Shown: positions 51,796 through 64,000 of the stretch, in pieces
How positions within the stretch are numbered: the first letter of the stretch is position 1
Layout of the letters: each line of letters starts with the position of its first letter
Assembly: GCF_029589435.1 (NCBI RefSeq)
Contig: NZ_JARRAG010000001.1
Span: 1,664,808-1,728,807 of the forward strand
Length of the DNA stretch: 64,000 bases
Source of the DNA: Paludisphaera mucosa
GTDB taxonomy: Bacteria > Planctomycetota > Planctomycetia > Isosphaerales > Isosphaeraceae
Direction: 5' to 3'
Notes under the pieces: generated by a model
Told to the model about the DNA's origin: nothing
Seen by the model: the letters and a program-made list of their open reading frames with translations, nothing else
Databases searched by the model: none
Translations under genes and position numbers: made by a program

Positions 51796-53073
51796 TCAGG
51801 GAAGTTCGGGATGAAGGGCGCGAGCCGCCTTGAGGAGCTCGGACAGCGCCTGACGCATATTTCGTCCCCTGACGGCGTCGCCCGCCGCGCCGGCCGGTTC
51901 CCCCTGCGCCTTCCAGATGTCGAAGGCCCGGGCCTTGAGTTCTTCGCGGATCTGTCGCTCCGCGTTGACCCAGTTTGCGAGACTGACGGCCTGGCCGGCC
52001 TCGCCTCGCGGAGACCCCTGGGACACCCAAATCTCGCGCGCGCGGATCGTGGTCAGTTCGCGGAATTCAACGGACGATTCGAAGTCCGGGTCCGGCTCGG
52101 CCCCAGGCATGAAAGGATCGACCGGTGGCGGGTTGGGCTGGAGGCGAAGGATCTGCGGCGGCGGATCCGGTCTCTGAAACCAGGCCCCACGATAAGCGGC
52201 CGTGGCCGCCGCCGCGATGGCGAGGAGGGCTCCGGCGAACAATGCTCGACCCAGAGTCGAGGCCCGGGGGGCGAGCGCACCGTCGAGCTCTGCAAGGAAT
52301 GTGTCGAGATCGGCGTAGCGGTCCTGGGGTTCTCGCGAGAGCGCCTTCATGACGACGCCGTCCACGCGTCGATCGAGGGTCGAGTCGATCTCGGAGGGGC
52401 TCTTGAACGAGCCCACGGGCCGCTTTCCCGTCAGCAGTTCATAGGACACCGCGGCCAGTGAATACTGGTCGGACCGCGCGTCGACCTGCCCCCCGTTTTG
52501 CTGTTCGGGAGACGCATAGACTAGGGTTCCAATCCCCTGATGGGTCTCGGTAAGGCGGCCGCGATCCTCCTGCAGGACAGCCAGTCCGAAGTCGGCGACC
52601 TTAACCAGGGAGTCGGTGGGGGTCAGGATGTTCTCGGGCTTTAGGTCGCGATGCAGGATCTTCTTCTCGTGGAGGTACGACAAAGCCTGGCCGATCTGCG
52701 AGAGGATCGACCGCCTCCTGGCAGGAGTGATCGATCGATCCTTCTGCAGCAGCTTCCGGAGGTCGCCGTTTTCGATGTATTCGGTGACGAGATAGGGGGG
52801 GCCGTCGTCGGGCAGCGTCCCGAAGTCGAGTATCGTCAAGACGTGGGGGTGGGCGACCATCGCCAGGATCTTGGCCTCGCGCTCGAAGCGTTCGCGACGC
52901 CCTGAGCAGCCTTCGCCTTGCGGCATGGCGAGGAGTTTGACGCAAACCGTGCGACCCAGAGTGCGTTGGCGGGCGAGGTACACGCGACCCATGCCCCCCT
53001 CGCCGATAAGGCGTAGGAGGTCGTAGCCCGGGACGGCCGGCAGGGCCGCCGGATTGACCTCGATCGGATGCAC
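51796..53073 (-). CDS. Membrane Ser/Thr protein kinase with two C-terminal DUF2934-like repeats
   Basis: 425 residues from the GTG at 53073, which has GGAGG seven bases upstream; the longer frame to 53163 has no SD. A complete Hanks-type kinase domain covers residues about 17-265: GEGGMGRVY (24-32), the VAIK-type lysine in CVKLL (Lys46), HRDLKPEN (141-148), DFG (161-163) and APE-like SPE (about 188-190). One membrane helix lies at about 276-293. Beyond it are two short repeats, RAREIWVSQGSPRGEAGQ...NWVNAERQ and ARAFDIWKAQGEPAGAAGDA, both like the DUF2934 pattern. It probably senses an external signal and phosphorylates Ser/Thr in the cytoplasm. Confidence 0.85.
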   Translation of the reverse strand: MHPIEVNPAALPAVPGYDLLRLIGEGGMGRVYLARQRTLGRTVCVKLLAMPQGEGCSGRRERFEREAKILAMVAHPHVLTILDFGTLPDDGPPYLVTEYIENGDLRKLLQKDRSITPARRRSILSQIGQALSYLHEKKILHRDLKPENILTPTDSLVKVADFGLAVLQEDRGRLTETHQGIGTLVYASPEQQNGGQVDARSDQYSLAAVSYELLTGKRPVGSFKSPSEIDSTLDRRVDGVVMKALSREPQDRYADLDTFLAELDGALAPRASTLGRALFAGALLAIAAAATAAYRGAWFQRPDPPPQILRLQPNPPPVDPFMPGAEPDPDFESSVEFRELTTIRAREIWVSQGSPRGEAGQAVSLANWVNAERQIREELKARAFDIWKAQGEPAGAAGDAVRGRNMRQALSELLKAARALHPELP

Positions 53074-54833: not shown

Positions 54834-55359
54834 GCAAACCGCTCTATCGGTGGCGGCCGGCCCGTTTACTCGAATCGATTTAGTCGTCGAGAACCCAGAA
54901 ATTCCCCGTCCTCGACAGGCCCACCGGACGTACTTCCGAGTGGCGCGACGAAGCTGATCACGGTCGGCCTTCCCGAAGCGATGACCGGGACCGGGCCGGC
55001 GGCTGGTTCGCTTGACAGATTCGCGAGGCCGGCGTTGTAATGACGATCGACGACTCTCGACCGCCGAAGGCGCGCAGGAACTCGTCCCGAGCGGCTTTCC
55101 CTGGGAGACCCTTTCGTCCGCCTTCCGGACCTCTCGCTCGCACGTCGACCTCCGAGGGAGTTCCCGACAGGTCGAGCCCGCCCCCGTCGTCTCGCCCGCG
55201 TTGGCAATACGGTCGCGCCTTGAGCCGGAGCGGGTCGTCGCGCCTCTCTGCGCCCCCGAGCCCGGGCGACCGGCCGCTCGCGGGCGGCCGATTCGCAGAA
55301 CTGACTCCCTCTCGGTTGCCATACAGCCTGAATCATCGACCTTCAGGAGGAACCCAGTC
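54834..55359. other. Intergenic region and leader upstream of prkA
   Basis: About 525 bp with no supported gene; open frames on both strands are Arg/Ser-rich shadow sequence. It contains a good promoter at 55012-55041 and about 310 nt of predicted untranslated leader before prkA. Confidence 0.55.
55012..55041 (+). promoter_or_regulatory. Sigma70-like promoter of prkA
   Basis: TTGACA (55012-55017, perfect -35) and TGTAAT (55036-55041, five of six) are 18 bp apart. The expected transcript starts near 55048, about 310 nt before the prkA ATG at 55360. Confidence 0.6.
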
Positions 55360-57417
55360 ATGTCCGCAGGATCGGAACTCATCTCGCTGATCGCCCGGCG
55401 CCAGAACCCCGACGAATACAAGCAGAAGCACTGGACCGGCAGCTTCGCGGAATATCTCGACCTCGTCCGCCAGGATCCCAACGTCACCCGAACCGCCTAC
55501 CAGCGGCTTTATGACATGATCATCAGCAAGGGGACCGAGGAGATCGCCGTCAACAAGGAGAAGCTGGTCCGCTACAAATTCTTCGACGACCCCGACGACG
55601 GCGGCCAGGACGCCATATTCGGCCTCGAACGGACGATGATCAGCCTCGTGAACGTCCTCAAGAGCGCCGCGCACGGCTACGGCACCGAACGTCGCGTGCT
55701 CTTGCTCCACGGTCCCGTCGGAAGTTCCAAGAGCACGTTGGCGCGTTTGCTGAAGAAGGGCCTCGAACGCTACTCCCACACCGAGGACGGCCGACTCTTC
55801 AGCTTCGGTTGGAAGGACGTCGGCCCCGAAGGCGAGGAGACGCTCCACGAGTGCCCGATGCACGAGGAGCCGCTCCACCTCATCCCCCAGAACGACCGCG
55901 CCGAGTTGCTCTCTCAGCTCGCCGACGGACGCAGCCACGTATACGACCTCAACGTCGTCGGCGACCTGTGCCCGTTCTGCCGCCAGATGTTCAACGACCG
56001 CATGGAGCGTTACGCCGGCGACTGGGCCAAGGTCGTCCAGGACGTCCGGGTGCGCCGCCTGATCCTCTCCGAGCAGGATCGGGTGGGCATTGGCACATTC
56101 CAGCCCAAGGACGAGAAGAATCAGGACGCCACCGAGCTGACCGGCGACATCAACTATCGCAAGATCGCCGAGTACGGCACCGAGAGCGACCCCCGGGCGT
56201 TCAATTTCGACGGCGAGTTCAACATATCCAACCGCGGCATCATCGAATTCATCGAGGTCCTCAAGCTCGACGTCGCCTTCCTGTACGACCTCCTGGGCGC
56301 GAGCCAGGAGCACAAGATCAAGCCCAAGAAATTCGCCCAGACCGACATCGACGAGGTGATCATCGGGCATACCAATGAGCCCGAATACAAGAAGCTGCAG
56401 TCCAACGAGTTTATGGAGGCGCTTCGGGACCGTACGGTCAAGATCGACGTCCCTTACGTCACGCGGCTCACCGACGAGATCCACATTTACGAGAAGGACT
56501 ACAACGAGCGCAAGGTGCGCGGCAAAAGGCTGGCGCCGCACACGCTCGAAGTCGCCGCGATGTGGGCCGTCCTGACGAGGCTCGAGGAGCCCAAAAACGC
56601 AGGCCTGACCCTCATGCAGAAGATGAAGCTCTACAACGGCAAGACCCTGCCCGGCTTCACCGAGGATAACATCAAGGAGCTTCGGGAAGAGTCCGAGCGC
56701 GAGGGCATGCTGGGCATCAGCCCGCGCTACGTCCAGGACAAGATCTCGAACGCCCTGGTCGCCCACCCCACCGAGCGGTCCATCAACCCGTTCATGGTTC
56801 TGAACGAGCTGGAGTCCGGCCTCAAACACCATTCGTTGATCAACAGCGACGAGACGCGAAAGCACTATCGTCACCTACTCTCGTTGGTCAAAGAAGAGTA
56901 TGAGGACATCGTCAAGAACGAGGTCCAGCGAGCCATCGCCGCCGACGAGGACGCCCTGACCCGGCTGTGCGGCAACTACATCGACAACGTCAAGGCGTAC
57001 ACCCAGCGCGAGAAGGTCAAGAACAAGTACACCGGCCAGACCGAGGAGCCCGACGAGCGACTGATGCGGTCGATCGAGGAGAAGATTGACATTCCGGAGA
57101 GCCGCAAGGACGACTTCCGGCGCGAGATCATGAACTACATCGGGGCCCTCGCCCTCGACGGCCGGAAGTTCGACTACCGGACGAACGAGCGGCTCCAGAA
57201 GGCCCTGGAATTGAAGCTGTTCCAGGATCAGAAGGACACGATCAAGCTGACGACGATGATCTCCAGCGTCGTCGACAAGGACACGCAGGAGAAGATCGAC
57301 ATCGTCAAGGCGCGACTCATCCGGAGCTACGGCTACGACGACGATTCGGCGACCGACGTCCTCAACTACGTCGCCAGCATCTTCGCGAGGGGCGACGTCA
57401 AACGCGGCGGCCACTGA
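55360..57417 (+). CDS. prkA: PrkA family serine protein kinase
   Basis: 685 residues; ATG at 55360 with AGGAGG (55345-55350) nine bases upstream. E. coli YeaG/PrkA is about 640 residues. The N-terminal AAA-like module has Walker [14 protein letters not shown] (118 onward) and a Cys-containing segment ([19 protein letters not shown]) that could bind zinc. The C-terminal half carries the PrkA-specific region. The protein is a Ser kinase, or AAA+ protease-like regulator, linked to starvation and stress responses. It is the first of the conserved PrkA-YeaH-SpoVR group. Its transcript appears to end at a strong hairpin before yeaH. Confidence 0.95.
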
Positions 57418-57432
57418 GCGTCCAGCACCCGC

Positions 57433-57463
57433 CCGCTCCGACCCATCGAACGGGTCGGAGCGG
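57433..57463 (+). terminator. Strong hairpin terminator after prkA
   Basis: A perfect 12-bp stem: CCGCTCCGACCC (57433-57444) and GGGTCGGAGCGG (57452-57463), loop ATCGAAC. It begins 16 bp after the prkA stop. No U-tract follows. Confidence 0.65.
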
Positions 57464-57580
57464 TCTCGGCGAAGTGGCCACATCGCTCGCGGAGTACGCA
57501 GCGGGAGCCCTAAATCTAGGCAGCGTGATGTCTTGAAGCCACACGCGTGGGGGGTCGAATCGCGCAACCGGCGGCACGTC

Positions 57581-57610
57581 TTGAACGGGATGGGGGCCGC
57601 GGTCTACAAT
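57581..57610 (+). promoter_or_regulatory. Sigma70-like promoter of the yeaH-spoVR genes
   Basis: TTGAAC (57581-57586, four of six) and TACAAT (57605-57610, five of six) are 18 bp apart. The predicted start is near 57617, about 260 nt before the yeaH start. Confidence 0.5.
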
Positions 57611-57879
57611 TTGCTGTTGAGAAGCTCTTCCCAGGGATCGGCGCCCCGAAGCCTCGACGGTTGCGAGCCGCTTTCTCAACCCACCTCATCGTCCGGCCGT
57701 GACGTTTCGACTCGTCCAGTCTTCACCCGCGAACGTTGAATCTGCTCTTTGCCAAATGGAATCCGGCGGATCTCTCGATCTCTCCGGAGCGTTCGTCGTT
57801 TCGCCTGCGCCCGATCGGCGGGGCGGGGCGCCCAGGACGGGAACCAATACAACCAGCGAGCGGCGGGGGCTTTACAGCC

Positions 57880-58983
57880 GTGGTGCGAAAAATCGATCGC
57901 GACGCCAGTCGTTTCAAGCAGATCGTCCGGGGCAAGATCAAGTCCGACCTGCGCAAGTACATCACGCACGGCGAGCTGATCGGCAAGTCGGGCGGCGAAT
58001 TCGTGTCGATCCCGCTCCCCCAGATCGAGATCCCCGAGTTCCGCTACGGCGAGAAGAACCGCGGCGGGGTGGGGCAGGGGCCCGGTGACGTCGGCACGCC
58101 GATCGGCCGCTCCGACGACGGCGACTCGGGCTCGGGCGCCGGAGAGGCCCCCGGTCATCACATCCTCGAAGTGGAGCTGACGCTCGACGACCTGGCCCAG
58201 ATCCTGGGCGAGGAGCTCGCCCTGCCGCGGATCCAGCCCAAGGGACGGGCCAACATCATCGAGGAGAAAGACAAGTACACCGGCATCCGCCAGACCGGCC
58301 CGGAGAGCCTCCGCCACTTCAAGCGGACCTACAAGAAGGCCCTCAAACGCCAGATCGCTTCGAGCCAGTACGACCCCCGCGACCCGTTGGTGATCCCGAT
58401 CCGCGAGGACAAACTCTATCGCTCGTGGAACCCGATCACGTCGCCCCAGTTCAACGCCGTCGTGCTCTACCTGATGGACGTCTCCGGCTCGATGACCGAC
58501 GATCAGAAGGAGATCGTCCGGACCGAGGCCTTCTGGATCGACACCTGGCTCAAGAGCCAGTATGACGGCGTGACGACCCGTTACATCATCCACGACGCGG
58601 TCGCCCGCGAGGTCGACGAGCACACCTTCTATCACACCCGAGAGAGCGGCGGGACGCGGATCAGCTCGGCGTACAACCTGGCGAACAAGCTCATCGAGGA
58701 GTTCCATTCGCCGATGGACTGGAACATCTACGTCCTGCACTTCTCCGACGGCGACAACTGGGGCGAGGACAACCGCCAGTGCATCGGGCTGCTCCGCGAT
58801 CAGCTCCTGCCGAAGTGCAACCTCTTCTGCTACGGCCAGGTCGAGAGCCCCTACGGGTCCGGCGAGTTCTATCGCGAGCTGGAAGAGGCGTTCGACGAGG
58901 TCCCCAACATGGCGCTCTCGGAGATCCGCAACAAGGAAGGCATCTACGAATCGATCAAGGAATTCCTGGGGCGGGGACGCTAG
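57880..58983 (+). CDS. YeaH/DUF444 family protein (VWA-like)
   Basis: 367 residues from the GTG at 57880 (another GTG at 57883); E. coli YeaH is about 427. The upstream frame opens at 57736, but DUF444-like sequence begins at RKIDRDASRFKQIVRGKIKS. Residues about 170-360 form a von Willebrand A-like domain with the metal-binding DVSGSM (D-x-S-x-S) and later GTRISSAYN. It is a partner of PrkA and SpoVR in many bacteria. A Gly/Asp-rich linker precedes the VWA domain. It lies 54 bp before spoVR. Confidence 0.9.
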   Translation: MVRKIDRDASRFKQIVRGKIKSDLRKYITHGELIGKSGGEFVSIPLPQIEIPEFRYGEKNRGGVGQGPGDVGTPIGRSDDGDSGSGAGEAPGHHILEVELTLDDLAQILGEELALPRIQPKGRANIIEEKDKYTGIRQTGPESLRHFKRTYKKALKRQIASSQYDPRDPLVIPIREDKLYRSWNPITSPQFNAVVLYLMDVSGSMTDDQKEIVRTEAFWIDTWLKSQYDGVTTRYIIHDAVAREVDEHTFYHTRESGGTRISSAYNLANKLIEEFHSPMDWNIYVLHFSDGDNWGEDNRQCIGLLRDQLLPKCNLFCYGQVESPYGSGEFYRELEEAFDEVPNMALSEIRNKEGIYESIKEFLGRGR

Positions 58984-59037
58984 CCGACGTCGGCGCGACG
59001 CGGGACGGCATAACGAAGTGAGGGAGGGGCCCGGATC

Positions 59038-60591
59038 ATGTCGACCGTCAACACCCATGACCTGCCCGCCGACCTGCGGGCCATCCAGATCGAGACCGAG
59101 GGGCACGCCCGCGACTACGGGCTCGATTTCTACGAGACCATCTTCGAGGTCCTCGACTACGACGAAATCTCGATGATCGCCGCGTTCGGCGGCTTCCCGA
59201 CCCGCTACCCGCACTGGCGGTTCGGAATGGAGTACCAGCAGCTCTCGAAGGGCTATCGCTACGGGCTCCAGAAGATCTACGAGATGGTCATCAACAACGA
59301 CCCTTGTTACGCCTATCTCCTGCGCTGCAATCAGCTCGTCGACCAGAAACTCGTCATGGCCCACGTCTACGGCCATAACGACTTCTTCAAGAACAACATC
59401 TGGTTCAGTCAGACCAACCGCAAGATGATGGACGAGACGGCGAACCACGGCAGCCGAATTCGCTCTCACATGGAGCGGAACGGCGAAGACGCGGTCGAGA
59501 GCTTTATCGATTCCTGCCTGTCGCTCGAGAACTTGATCGACGTCTACTCGCCCCACATCAAGCGCCGGGAGTCGGTGAACCGCTACGACTTCGACGAGGG
59601 CGGCGAGGAGAACCGCCAGCCGTCGAAGTTCCAGAGCAAGTCCTACATGGACGATTTCATCAACCCGCCCGCCGTCCTGAAGGAGGAGCAGCGCCAGCGG
59701 GATTCGGACCGCGAGAAGGCCAAGCCGTCGTCATTCCCGGAGCATCCCGAACGCGACGTTCTCCTGTTCCTGATCGAGCACGCTCCGCTCAAACCCTGGC
59801 AACGCGATGTGCTGACCATCGTCCGCGAGGAGGCTTACTACTTCGCTCCACAGGGTCAGACCAAGATCATGAACGAGGGCTGGGCCTCTTTCTGGCACTC
59901 GACCATCATGACCCAGAAGATCCTCCACCCATCGGAGCTCCTCGACTACGCCGACCACCACTCGGGCACCATGGCGACCCAACCGGGCCGGCTCAATCCT
60001 TATAAGCTGGGCATCGAGCTCCTCCGGGACATCGAGGAGCGCTGGAACAAGGGCCAATTCGGCCCCGAATGGGAGGAGTGCGACGACTACCAGGTCAAGC
60101 GTCACTGGGACAAGCAGCTCGGCCTCGGCCGCAAGAAGATCTTCGAGGTGAGGCGCATCCACAACGACGTGACGTTCATCGACACGTTCCTGACGCAGGA
60201 CTTCTGCAAGCGTCACCAGCTTTTCAGCTTCAAGCACAACGACCAGAACGACCTCTACGAGATCGAGAGCCGGGAGTTCAAGAAGATCAAGGAGCGGCTC
60301 CTGTTCAACTTGACCAACTTCGGCCAACCCATCATCCGGGTCAAGGACGGCAACTTCCGCAACCGCGGCGAGCTGTACCTGGGCCAGGAGCATTTCGGCG
60401 TCGACTTACGCCTGGACTACGCCCAGGACACCATTCGCCATCTTCACCGCCTCTGGACGCGTCCGGTCCACCTGGAAACGACCGTCGACGGGCGGCCCAC
60501 CTTACTTTCGTTTGACGGAACCGACCACTCGATCCGCCCTTTGGGAGGTGCGTCCCATGACGTTGAGCCGAAAGATCGCCGCCGCGCTTGA
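59038..60591 (+). CDS. SpoVR/YcgB family protein
   Basis: 517 residues, close to E. coli YcgB (about 510). GGAGG precedes the ATG at 59038. Family landmarks are the opening [73 protein letters not shown] and the late [18 protein letters not shown]. It is cytoplasmic and found with PrkA and YeaH across bacteria; linked to sporulation cortex in Bacillus and to stress elsewhere, mechanism unclear. Its last 35 bp overlap the start of the next gene. Confidence 0.95.
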
Positions 60592-61766: not shown

Positions 61767-64000
61767 ATGCTCGATCCCAAGACATCGCGATTCTGGAAGG
61801 CCGCGCTTCAAAGCGGTCTCCTCGACGCCGAGGCGCTCGCCGCCTGCTGGGACGCCATCTCCCCCGAAAAACGCGACGACGCGGAGCATCTCGACCGTCG
61901 TCTCGGGCGTCAGGCCGTGTATCTCCAGCGTCTGACGCTTTGGCAGGCGCAACAGCTGCTCGCCGGCCGAATCACCGGTTTTCAAGTCGATCGCTACATC
62001 CTTCAGGAACTGATCGGTCAGGGCGGTATGGGTCGCGTCTACCGCGCGAAGGACACTCGTCTCGATCGCCACGTGGCGTTGAAGATCCTCTCGCCCGAGC
62101 GAATGAACAACCCCCGAGCAATCGCGCGATTCCAGCGTGAGGCGAAGGTCGGGGCACAGCTTCAGCACGAAAACCTCGTTCGACTGTACGACTTCGGCGA
62201 ATCTCAAGGTCGTCATTTCCTGGTCATGGAGTTCATCGAGGGCAAAACCCTCGGCTTCTACATAGCGACTCAGGGACGGATCCCGCCAGCGGTCGCGGCG
62301 CGGTTCTGTCGACAGGTGGCGCTCGGGCTCGATCACGCCCACGGCAAAGGGCTGATCCACCGGGACGTGAACCCGTATAACGTCATCGTGACCAAGGAAG
62401 GGATCGCCAAGCTCGCCGACATGGGCCTGGCCATCGACCTGGCCGACGAGGGGAAGGTCACACGCGATGGCGCGACGGTCGGTACGTTCGACTACGTCGC
62501 ACCGGAGCAGGCCCGACACTCCCACTCGGCCGACATCCGAAGCGACATCTATTCATTGGGTTGCACCTTCTATCACATGGTCGCGGGTCAGGTCCCGTTT
62601 CCGCATCCAGGGCTCGCCGAGAAGCTTTTCGCACACCAGTCCCAGGAAGCAGCCCCACTTGCCGGCCTGACACCTGACGTCCCTCCCGGATTGGCCGAAG
62701 TCGTCGGGAAGATGATGCGGAAGAAACCTGAGGAGCGTTTCCAGAATCCGCAGGAGGTCGCAGCAGCCTTACGCCCCTACACGGAGAGAAGTCCCGTCGA
62801 ACGCGAGGCCGTCATCGCGGTCGGAGCGACGGGCGGGGACGTGCGAGCCCCTGAACGCGGCGATCTCGGGTCGGGAGACGCGCCGACGAGCACGACGGGC
62901 GGGAGCGACGTCGGGAACGAGGCGTCACAGGAATTCTCGATCCAGGTCGACCTCGGACCGGCTCCCTCATTGACCGGATCAGTGCGCAATCCCCGGCCCT
63001 GGTTCGGAACAGCCGGACCCAGGCCTCCCTCCGGGTGCGACTCGACTTCCTCGGGCTCGGACTCGGGTTCCGCCGTATCCGCGTCACGTCTCGACTTACC
63101 GGCCGGCCCCGGCCGCCCCCGCTGGCAGAAGGCCGCCATGCTTCTCGGCCTCCTCGCGAGCGGCCTCGCCGTCGAGGAGGGCGTGCGACGATCGCTTGGA
63201 CGGGGCGACGCCCAAGTCAGACGCCCGACTCTCTCCGCGAATGTGGCAAAAGGAGCTTCGCCGGGTCGAGTCATGCCGCCGATCGACTGGGACAAGTCGC
63301 CGGTGGCGGTCTTGCAGCCTGACGGCTCCATGGCGTCCGCCCCCGACCTACTTCGTGCGATGGAGACGGCCCTCGGCGGCAAGGGTATCGTGGTCCTGCG
63401 GGGTGGGACGCCCATCGAACTCCAGGCCGGCGAAGGCCATTCGATCTCGGGCCGCGGCACTCTTCAGATCCAGGGCGTCGAAGGCGAGACGACGGTGTTG
63501 AAAATCGCCCTCGACGCCGCGAAGCCATTCCTGGCGACCGGGTCCGGCGTGAATCTCGTGCTGAAGAATCTGACCATCGAGGTCAGTCGTCCTGCGGTTC
63601 CGAGCGTAGCGGCCTCTCCCGCTCCCGCGCCACCTGCTTTGATCATGGCCGCCGGCAAGGCCCTCCTGGAGCACTGCGCCATTCGGACCGCGCCGACTCA
63701 TGGGTATCCGGGCTCGTGTGCGATCGTCTCGAACGGTGGAGGCTTGAGCGTCACCCACTGCTGGTTCGAAGGATTCGAGACGGCCGTCGAGATCAGGGCG
63801 TTGGCGGGCAACGATCACATCCTGAGACAGTCCATGTTTGTCCCCGGCGGCACTCCCTCGGAAGCGGTGAAGTCGGGAAAGCCCGTGCGGCGGGGCTGGG
63901 CGGCCCGGATCGTCTTCGAGGGGGGGGGAGTCCCGAGAGGGGGGCGATCGGTGCGTTTCGATCACTGCACCTTCGTCGGCGAGGGCCTCTCGCAGATTGT
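61767..64000 (+). CDS. Ser/Thr protein kinase with probable beta-helix C-terminal domain (3' end outside window)
   Basis: At least 744 codons are open from the ATG at 61767 to the window edge. Residues about 75-335 are a Hanks-type kinase domain: GQGGMGRVY, VALKIL with the ATP lysine, HRDVNPYN (from His198) and DMG in place of DFG. The position of the usual catalytic-loop lysine (HRDLKPEN) is Asn. A disordered Asp/Ser/Gly-rich linker follows, then a short hydrophobic stretch (AAMLLGLLASGLAV) that may span the membrane. From about residue 510 on there are repeated short strands and turns (IVVLRGGTPIELQ, TLQIQGVEG, LVLKNLTIEV, LLEHCAIR, LSVTHCWFEGFE) typical of right-handed parallel beta-helices. 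Possibly a sensor kinase for an external glycan or protein. Confidence 0.82.
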   Translation, partial: MLDPKTSRFWKAALQSGLLDAEALAACWDAISPEKRDDAEHLDRRLGRQAVYLQRLTLWQAQQLLAGRITGFQVDRYILQELIGQGGMGRVYRAKDTRLDRHVALKILSPERMNNPRAIARFQREAKVGAQLQHENLVRLYDFGESQGRHFLVMEFIEGKTLGFYIATQGRIPPAVAARFCRQVALGLDHAHGKGLIHRDVNPYNVIVTKEGIAKLADMGLAIDLADEGKVTRDGATVGTFDYVAPEQARHSHSADIRSDIYSLGCTFYHMVAGQVPFPHPGLAEKLFAHQSQEAAPLAGLTPDVPPGLAEVVGKMMRKKPEERFQNPQEVAAALRPYTERSPVEREAVIAVGATGGDVRAPERGDLGSGDAPTSTTGGSDVGNEASQEFSIQVDLGPAPSLTGSVRNPRPWFGTAGPRPPSGCDSTSSGSDSGSAVSASRLDLPAGPGRPRWQKAAMLLGLLASGLAVEEGVRRSLGRGDAQVRRPTLSANVAKGASPGRVMPPIDWDKSPVAVLQPDGSMASAPDLLRAMETALGGKGIVVLRGGTPIELQAGEGHSISGRGTLQIQGVEGETTVLKIALDAAKPFLATGSGVNLVLKNLTIEVSRPAVPSVAASPAPAPPALIMAAGKALLEHCAIRTAPTHGYPGSCAIVSNGGGLSVTHCWFEGFETAVEIRALAGNDHILRQSMFVPGGTPSEAVKSGKPVRRGWAARIVFEGGGVPRGGRSVRFDHCTFVGEGLSQI

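Follow-up and report, generated by a model that had tools for sequence, protein, structure and literature searches.

The question raised by this locus is whether a protein kinase that lacks the usual lysine of its catalytic loop can still work and, if so, what it responds to. The gene lies at the end of the window (the whole stretch of DNA analysed, 64,000 nucleotides, bases 1664808–1728807 of contig 1 of the 8.21-Mb genome of Paludisphaera mucosa). Our reading, to which we give a probability of about 0.55, is that its product is a PknB-type Ser/Thr kinase with a single membrane pass, which senses an envelope signal through a beta-helix and is active without the catalytic-loop Lys.

Layout of the gene and protein

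The gene starts at the ATG at 61767, a position supported by the majority consensus of the relatives there (M.DP..SRFW). Its frame leaves the window; retrieval of the rest of the gene, as advised in the first-pass annotation, placed the stop at L009:8384 (window-equivalent 64376) and gave a protein of 869 residues. The features are as follows.

61767..64000, plus strand: whole gene, window part, residues 1–744 of 869; the gene ends at window-equivalent 64376, beyond the window
61767..61994, plus strand: N-terminal helical domain, residues 1–76, family-conserved (majority consensus M.DP..SRFW ... DRRLARQAV....LTLWQAQQLLAGR; AlphaFold2 model)
61998..62747, plus strand: protein kinase domain, residues 78–327 (PF00069, 163.8 bits)
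62358..62381, plus strand: catalytic loop HRDVNPYN, residues 198–205, in which Asn202 replaces the usual Lys (sequence, family alignment)
62418..62510, plus strand: activation segment, DMG to APE motif, residues 218–248 (T232, T237 and T240 invariant in the 32-sequence alignment A2)
62418..62426, plus strand: DMG motif, residues 218–220 (sequence)
62790..63116, plus strand: linker, residues 342–450, predicted disordered (pLDDT < 50)
63120..63194, plus strand: single predicted membrane helix, residues 452–476 (AlphaFold2 helix and hydropathy)
63297..64000 and onward past the window, plus strand: predicted right-handed parallel beta-helix domain, residues 511 to ~830 (AlphaFold2 model, Foldseek, VIA-align)

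The first-pass annotation had allowed that the C-terminal part might prove to be a separate gene in other strains. This is ruled out at the 36 family loci fetched, at all of which the C-terminal domain shares one open frame with the kinase. Within the set, the kinase of L065 is cut by a contig end, L051 and L053 are cut within the C-terminal domain and the start of L046 looks frameshifted; G025 has one TGA, located at the end of the C-terminal domain. A 37th match, a 164-residue contig-edge piece in G034, lies outside the set. The model of the full-length protein has a pTM of 0.49, and residues 229–238 of the activation segment are modelled with pLDDT < 50.

The helix predicted by AlphaFold2 at residues 452–476 is matched in 34 of the 36 sequences by a 19-residue stretch with a mean hydropathy of at least 1.6, the window protein's own segment reaching only 1.24; flanking charges favour an N-in orientation in just 22 of the 36. 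We would place the kinase domain in the cytoplasm and the beta-helix outside the inner membrane, with the flexible linker and the one helix between them. PASTA kinases are likewise built of a kinase domain, a membrane helix and an outer C-terminal domain. The window kinase resembles PknB and these kinases in this layout, in its PF00069 domain and in an alignable activation segment, but has a predicted beta-helix in place of the PASTA repeats and Asn in place of the catalytic-loop Lys. The PASTA kinase profile NF033483 scores it at 296 bits against a cut-off of 450, with the best stretch at residues 75–349.

Single-span planctomycete kinases carrying periplasmic accessory domains are common according to PMC11032199, which describes Ser/Thr kinases of this kind with WD40, TPR, DUF1080 and sulfatase-modifying domains. 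Their layout and phylum are those of the window kinase, which, unlike them, carries no Pfam-recognisable accessory domain. The main text of that paper contains no words beginning beta-helix, helix, pectin or lyase, and we found no description of a beta-helix in planctomycete or bacterial kinases in the open-licence PMC literature.

The kinase active site

The kinase domain matches PF00069 over residues 78–327 with 163.8 bits (curated cut-off 31.7) and E 6.6e-48. The replacement of the catalytic-loop Lys by Asn (HRDVNPYN), reported in the first-pass annotation, is confirmed at residues 198–205, as is its statement that the ATP lysine and the Asp residues remain: K106 (VALK, the ATP lysine), D200 (HRD) and D218 (DMG) are present and invariant, and Glu125 and Asn205 are also in place. 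K106, D200 and D218 constitute the KDD set (beta3 Lys, HRD Asp, DFG Asp) by which Hanks-type kinases are recognised in PMC11032199. The invariant residues in alignment A2, which holds 32 sequences after exclusion of four incomplete or odd rows from the 36, are G86, G87, K106, E125, H190, H198, D200, N205, D218, T232, T237, T240 and D260.

HRDVNP itself is invariant in all 35 readable family sequences, the window protein included (of the 36 rows, one is truncated by a contig end). A 2007 survey of the kinase superfamily (PMC1821047) takes the four positions that separate HRD from Asn to be a signature of kinase families, reading (L/I)KPx in Ser/Thr kinases and (L/I)AAR in Tyr kinases; here they read VNPx in 35 of 35 readable family sequences. 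The same survey gives ten key residues (G52, K72, E91, P104, H158, H164, D166, N171, D184 and D220 in PKA numbering), from which the catalytic-loop Lys is absent.

The DMG motif, which the first-pass annotation had presented as a second notable replacement (of DFG), now appears less so. It is found in five of the six sequences of the host genus, all other sequences in the family alignment having DLG, and in PMC3513839 a Leu-to-Phe change in the DLG of Nek7 gave comparable activity. Because the family members outside the genus are all DLG and the Nek7 variant remained comparable, we see no meaningful defect in DMG. A literature search gave no confirmation of the further statement that other bacterial kinases carry HRDVSP.

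The closest solved structure by sequence is PknB (E 3.8e-51), whose activation segment VTQTAAVIGT can be aligned with VTRDGATVGT of the window kinase; T232 falls opposite an activation-loop Thr of PknB. Since the residues usually called essential are retained, activity without the catalytic-loop Lys is likely, judged from the sequence, in agreement with the earlier suggestion that the kinase may still be active.

Against this stands the possibility of a pseudokinase, in which Asn202 weakens the positioning of the gamma-phosphate, so that ATP is bound without phosphorylation and the protein serves as a ligand-controlled scaffold or as the allosteric partner of another kinase. A pseudokinase review (PMC4718504) gives some ground for it, as the catalytic-loop Lys (Lys168 of PKA) is there said to hold and position the gamma-phosphate; the same review describes Tyr kinases that lack this Lys yet are active, with an Arg two residues further on instead. 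In the present family the residue two past Asn202 is Y, S, A, Q, W, M or C, or R in three sequences, and is thus not kept basic. No strictly conserved substitute for the lost Lys was found in the comparison of basic residues across the family rows, which also speaks for a pseudokinase. In the glycine loop, position 90 carries a basic residue in 33 of the 37 family rows and in 9% of 101 HRDxKP kinases. We take this as no more than a lead, because the other four members have Leu there and because the comparison set is skewed, having been picked mostly by similarity and sequence pattern and holding 15 close copies of the neighbouring Ser/Thr kinase (STPK). All 37 family rows have a basic residue at the positions of R98, R139 and K286, as against 9–14% of the HRDxKP kinases of this same set.

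Rarity and origin of the asparagine

The host genome has 76 exact HRD(x)KP-coding sites, 75 of them inside PF00069 matches, and three HRD(x)NP sites, two of which are in kinases: the window gene (HRDVNPYN) and L077 (HRDLNPTN). This rarity, two kinases against 76 sites, is a further point for a pseudokinase. The third HRDxNP site (C1:929456) falls outside every PF00069 match and was put down to chance. L077 has DFG and, by eye, WD40-like repeats. Its Asn probably arose separately, since in the tree described below it groups (support 93) with two HRDLKPAN kinases.

Within the class, the DNA pattern HRDVNPxN matches 41 of 198 genomes, that is, 40 of the 45 within the family (probably Isosphaeraceae) and one of the 153 outside it. 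The outside site is in G522, and a reversed control pattern also gave one match in the same search. The copy is single in 38 of the 40 family genomes and double in two, and the five family genomes without a match are 74–92% complete. Decay of the Lys codon and sequencing error are both ruled out by the Asn in 35 of 35 readable sequences and the pattern in 40 of 45 family genomes. The same two counts, with the mostly single copy number, argue for a maintained function. The catalytic residues other than the Lys and the Thr residues of the activation segment are invariant, whereas in a pseudokinase of such age the loss of some would be expected. We therefore consider a pseudokinase quite unlikely and retain the reading of an active enzyme.

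The tree of 82 kinase domains places all 31 HRDVN rows on one side of a branch with an SH-aLRT support of 99. It was made by a quick method without bootstrap, with the loop residue masked only in the HRDVN and related-domain rows; six of the 37 HRDVN rows (near copies, or the edge locus L086) and every second background row were left out, and 14 long branches were flagged. The HRDVN clade sits in a 41-row group (support 89, not strong) together with six kinases bearing a related C-terminal domain, two kinases of the host genome and two others. The HRDVNP kinase of L092 is placed with those of the family genomes G010 and G027; its record bears the title Candidatus Kuenenia stuttgartiensis, perhaps wrongly.

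Among the kinase-profile (A3) matches listed, 80 readable loops from 79 loci comprise 7 with Asn and 73 with Lys. Six of the seven Asn kinases match the C-terminal profile, the seventh (L086) being cut by a contig end, as against one of the 73 Lys kinases (L095). As a single query, the C-terminal domain was found in 35 of 148 genomes, all within the family. Its profile also matches two other kinases of the host genome (E 2.6e-8 and 1.4e-3) and reaches 19 of 392 phylum genomes at E 1e-5, a count that includes the host and one other family member. A scan for a kinase together with a C-terminal match, run on both strands and without HMMER filters, yielded ten kinase genes outside the HRDVN clade with an in-frame C-terminal match and a readable loop (L167 and L168/L003, both of the host genome, and L095, L184, L185, L188, L191, L192, L195 and L196). 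These have the same order of parts and a C-terminal domain matched by the HRDVN-family profile, but differ in that all ten have HRD(I/V)KP, with loops HRDIKPSN, HRDIKPGN or HRDVKPSN. Several match only part of this profile, and the match of L168/L003 is weak. The six of the ten that were entered in the tree (L167, L003, L184, L191, L192 and L095) fall in the 41-row group with the HRDVN clade, yet do not form one clade.

As kinases outside the clade that have a related C-terminal domain keep the Lys, the layout is wider than the Asn change. From the tree, Asn202 probably replaced Lys once, in a lineage that already had the layout of kinase and C-terminal domain.

Further C-terminal matches lie beside a partial kinase in L189, L190, L194, L197 and L199, where the loop is beyond the locus. 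In another family of the class (L178–L183) the related domain occurs in proteins without a kinase. The N-terminal halves of L178 and L180 weakly resemble squalene cyclases, the former under the Pfam cut-off and the latter just over it, and some of these proteins start with a hydrophobic stretch that by eye is signal-peptide-like.

The C-terminal domain as a predicted beta-helix

The downstream parallel beta-helix proposed in the first-pass annotation is supported by prediction. The AlphaFold2 model of residues 503–869, built from 36 family sequences, is a beta-helix with a pLDDT of 89.9 and a pTM of 0.91. The best PDB matches found by Foldseek are PL6 alginate lyases (E 5e-4), with three matches at E 0.001 or better; TM-scores on the query are low, at 0.15–0.38 among the 50 matches listed. 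VIA-align, used as a second look at Foldseek's own matches (absence from its list was not counted as evidence), aligned 331 of the 413 chains with a Z of at least 8. Its top match, to the PL6 lyase 7dmk_A, has a Z of 22.8 over 281 residues with an rmsd of 3.7, and 49 other entries reach Z 17.7–20.1, their titles being mostly polysaccharide lyases and hydrolases, epimerases, phage tailspikes and adhesins. The alignment to right-handed parallel beta-helices thus extends over most of the predicted domain.

The fold was not recovered from sequence searches. Pfam has no family in residues 540–869 at E 1, none of the 21 matches of PF13229 (Beta_helix) in the genome at E 0.01 is in the window kinase gene, and a profile search of PDB sequences gave no match to the C-terminal domain at E 1. 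In the 36 sequences the columns conserved at ≥ 90% hold Ala, Pro, Gly, Phe, Trp or Asn, to which Val, Leu and Cys are added at ≥ 80%. No Asp, Glu, Lys, Arg or His column reaches 80% identity in the same sequences, the most conserved charged column being D861 (26 of 36). The conserved residues look structural, and the pattern fits a scaffold with a variable binding face, or one with no common ligand; it does not favour an enzyme.

A polysaccharide lyase or hydrolase fused to the kinase and active as such would fit the presence of PL6 lyases, pectate lyases and galacturonidases among the close folds. PL6 polysaccharide lyases, however, have conserved catalytic basic residues. The window domain shares their fold, and that of other right-handed beta-helix proteins, by prediction, but none of its columns reaches 80% for Lys or Arg, strongly conserved charged residues are lacking altogether, and PDB sequences give no match at E 1. 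The top VIA-align match, moreover, covers residues 424–747 of the 732-residue lyase chain, a part which we take to be non-catalytic. An enzyme is disfavoured by the lack of strongly conserved charged columns, and we regard it as highly improbable.

The first-pass annotation also described the beta-helix as a fold that binds polysaccharides, from which came the idea of a kinase that reads glycans. This holds in so far as many of the structural neighbours are carbohydrate-active; it does not hold as a rule, as adhesins and tailspikes have the same fold. The idea draws on the resemblance of folds, and a glycan ligand may be suggested on that basis. The beta-helix might instead act as an anchor or adhesin and hold at the envelope a kinase that is regulated by other means; the structural look of the conserved positions and the alignment of the beta-helix adhesin PfbA (Z 18.8) are both consistent with this. 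The order of kinase, membrane helix and outer domain is, however, the usual sensing layout of bacterial Ser/Thr kinases, and we find a mere anchor rather unlikely. We favour a sensor, most likely of a cell-envelope component, for which a wall or surface polymer would be the first guess.

Neighbouring genes

Downstream of the kinase gene and on the opposite strand, at L009:8859–14958 (window-equivalent 64851–70950, beyond the window), lie genes for an ECF sigma factor, a 235-residue protein that by eye looks membrane-bound, a canonical STPK (HRDLKPAN), an FHA protein and a coiled-coil-like protein. Relatives of the ECF, STPK or FHA genes (blastp, E 1e-8, 30% identity, 40% coverage) occur at 18 of the 36 loci; where at least 6 kb of downstream flank is available they are present at 17 of 27 loci and missing at 10. 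The ECF sigma gene, found at 15 loci, is on the opposite strand to the kinase in all 15 and within 600 bases of it at 11, and the sigma2.2 motif of its product is ASED in 14 of the 15 and AAED in one.

According to PMC8999054, there are ECF groups, several of them from planctomycetes, for which regulation by phosphorylation is predicted; some of these groups have a Ser or Thr within the DAED motif or close to it. The ECF43-type factors activated by STPKs (EcfP–PknT and EcfK–PknS; PMC8999054) are similar in that an ECF sigma gene stands beside STPK genes and Ser is present in sigma2.2. They differ from the present case, where E and D are preserved in the motif and the sigma gene shares its strand with a different, canonical kinase. 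The cluster is a candidate target, and as such a lead; its own STPK is the nearer partner.

On the other side of the gene, PrkA, DUF444 and SpoVR genes stand in a row upstream (55012–60591), and all three adjoin the kinase gene in four of the five further genomes compared within the genus. The window has a second kinase at 52369–53025 on the minus strand, with a PF00069 match and an HRDLKP loop.

Discussion

The mechanism that we propose is as follows. Engagement of a ligand by the beta-helix would bring kinase domains together, and these would autophosphorylate on the activation segment. The active kinase would then act on cytoplasmic targets, for which the products of the adjacent cluster of ECF sigma, second kinase and FHA genes are candidates. 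Asn202 would now be fixed after its single replacement of Lys, in an enzyme that works without the Lys. A fuller version can be stated, in which a family-wide, usually single-copy active kinase has given up the Lys for good (perhaps using the glycine-loop arginine instead), reads an envelope polysaccharide through the beta-helix and feeds the ECF sigma/FHA cluster; as a whole, we consider this distinctly doubtful.

If this fuller version is true, these bacteria would sense their wall through a kinase that combines an altered active site with a sensor fold of an uncharacterised kind. The family offers a case, fixed by nature, in which to ask whether Ser/Thr kinases can dispense with the catalytic-loop Lys, and the Lys-bearing relatives of similar layout can serve as controls. 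A predicted beta-helix, a fold usual in carbohydrate enzymes and adhesins, here stands where a bacterial kinase has its sensor, in a stretch missed by Pfam. If its ligand is an envelope polymer, the kinase may provide a lead to how the envelope is monitored in these bacteria.
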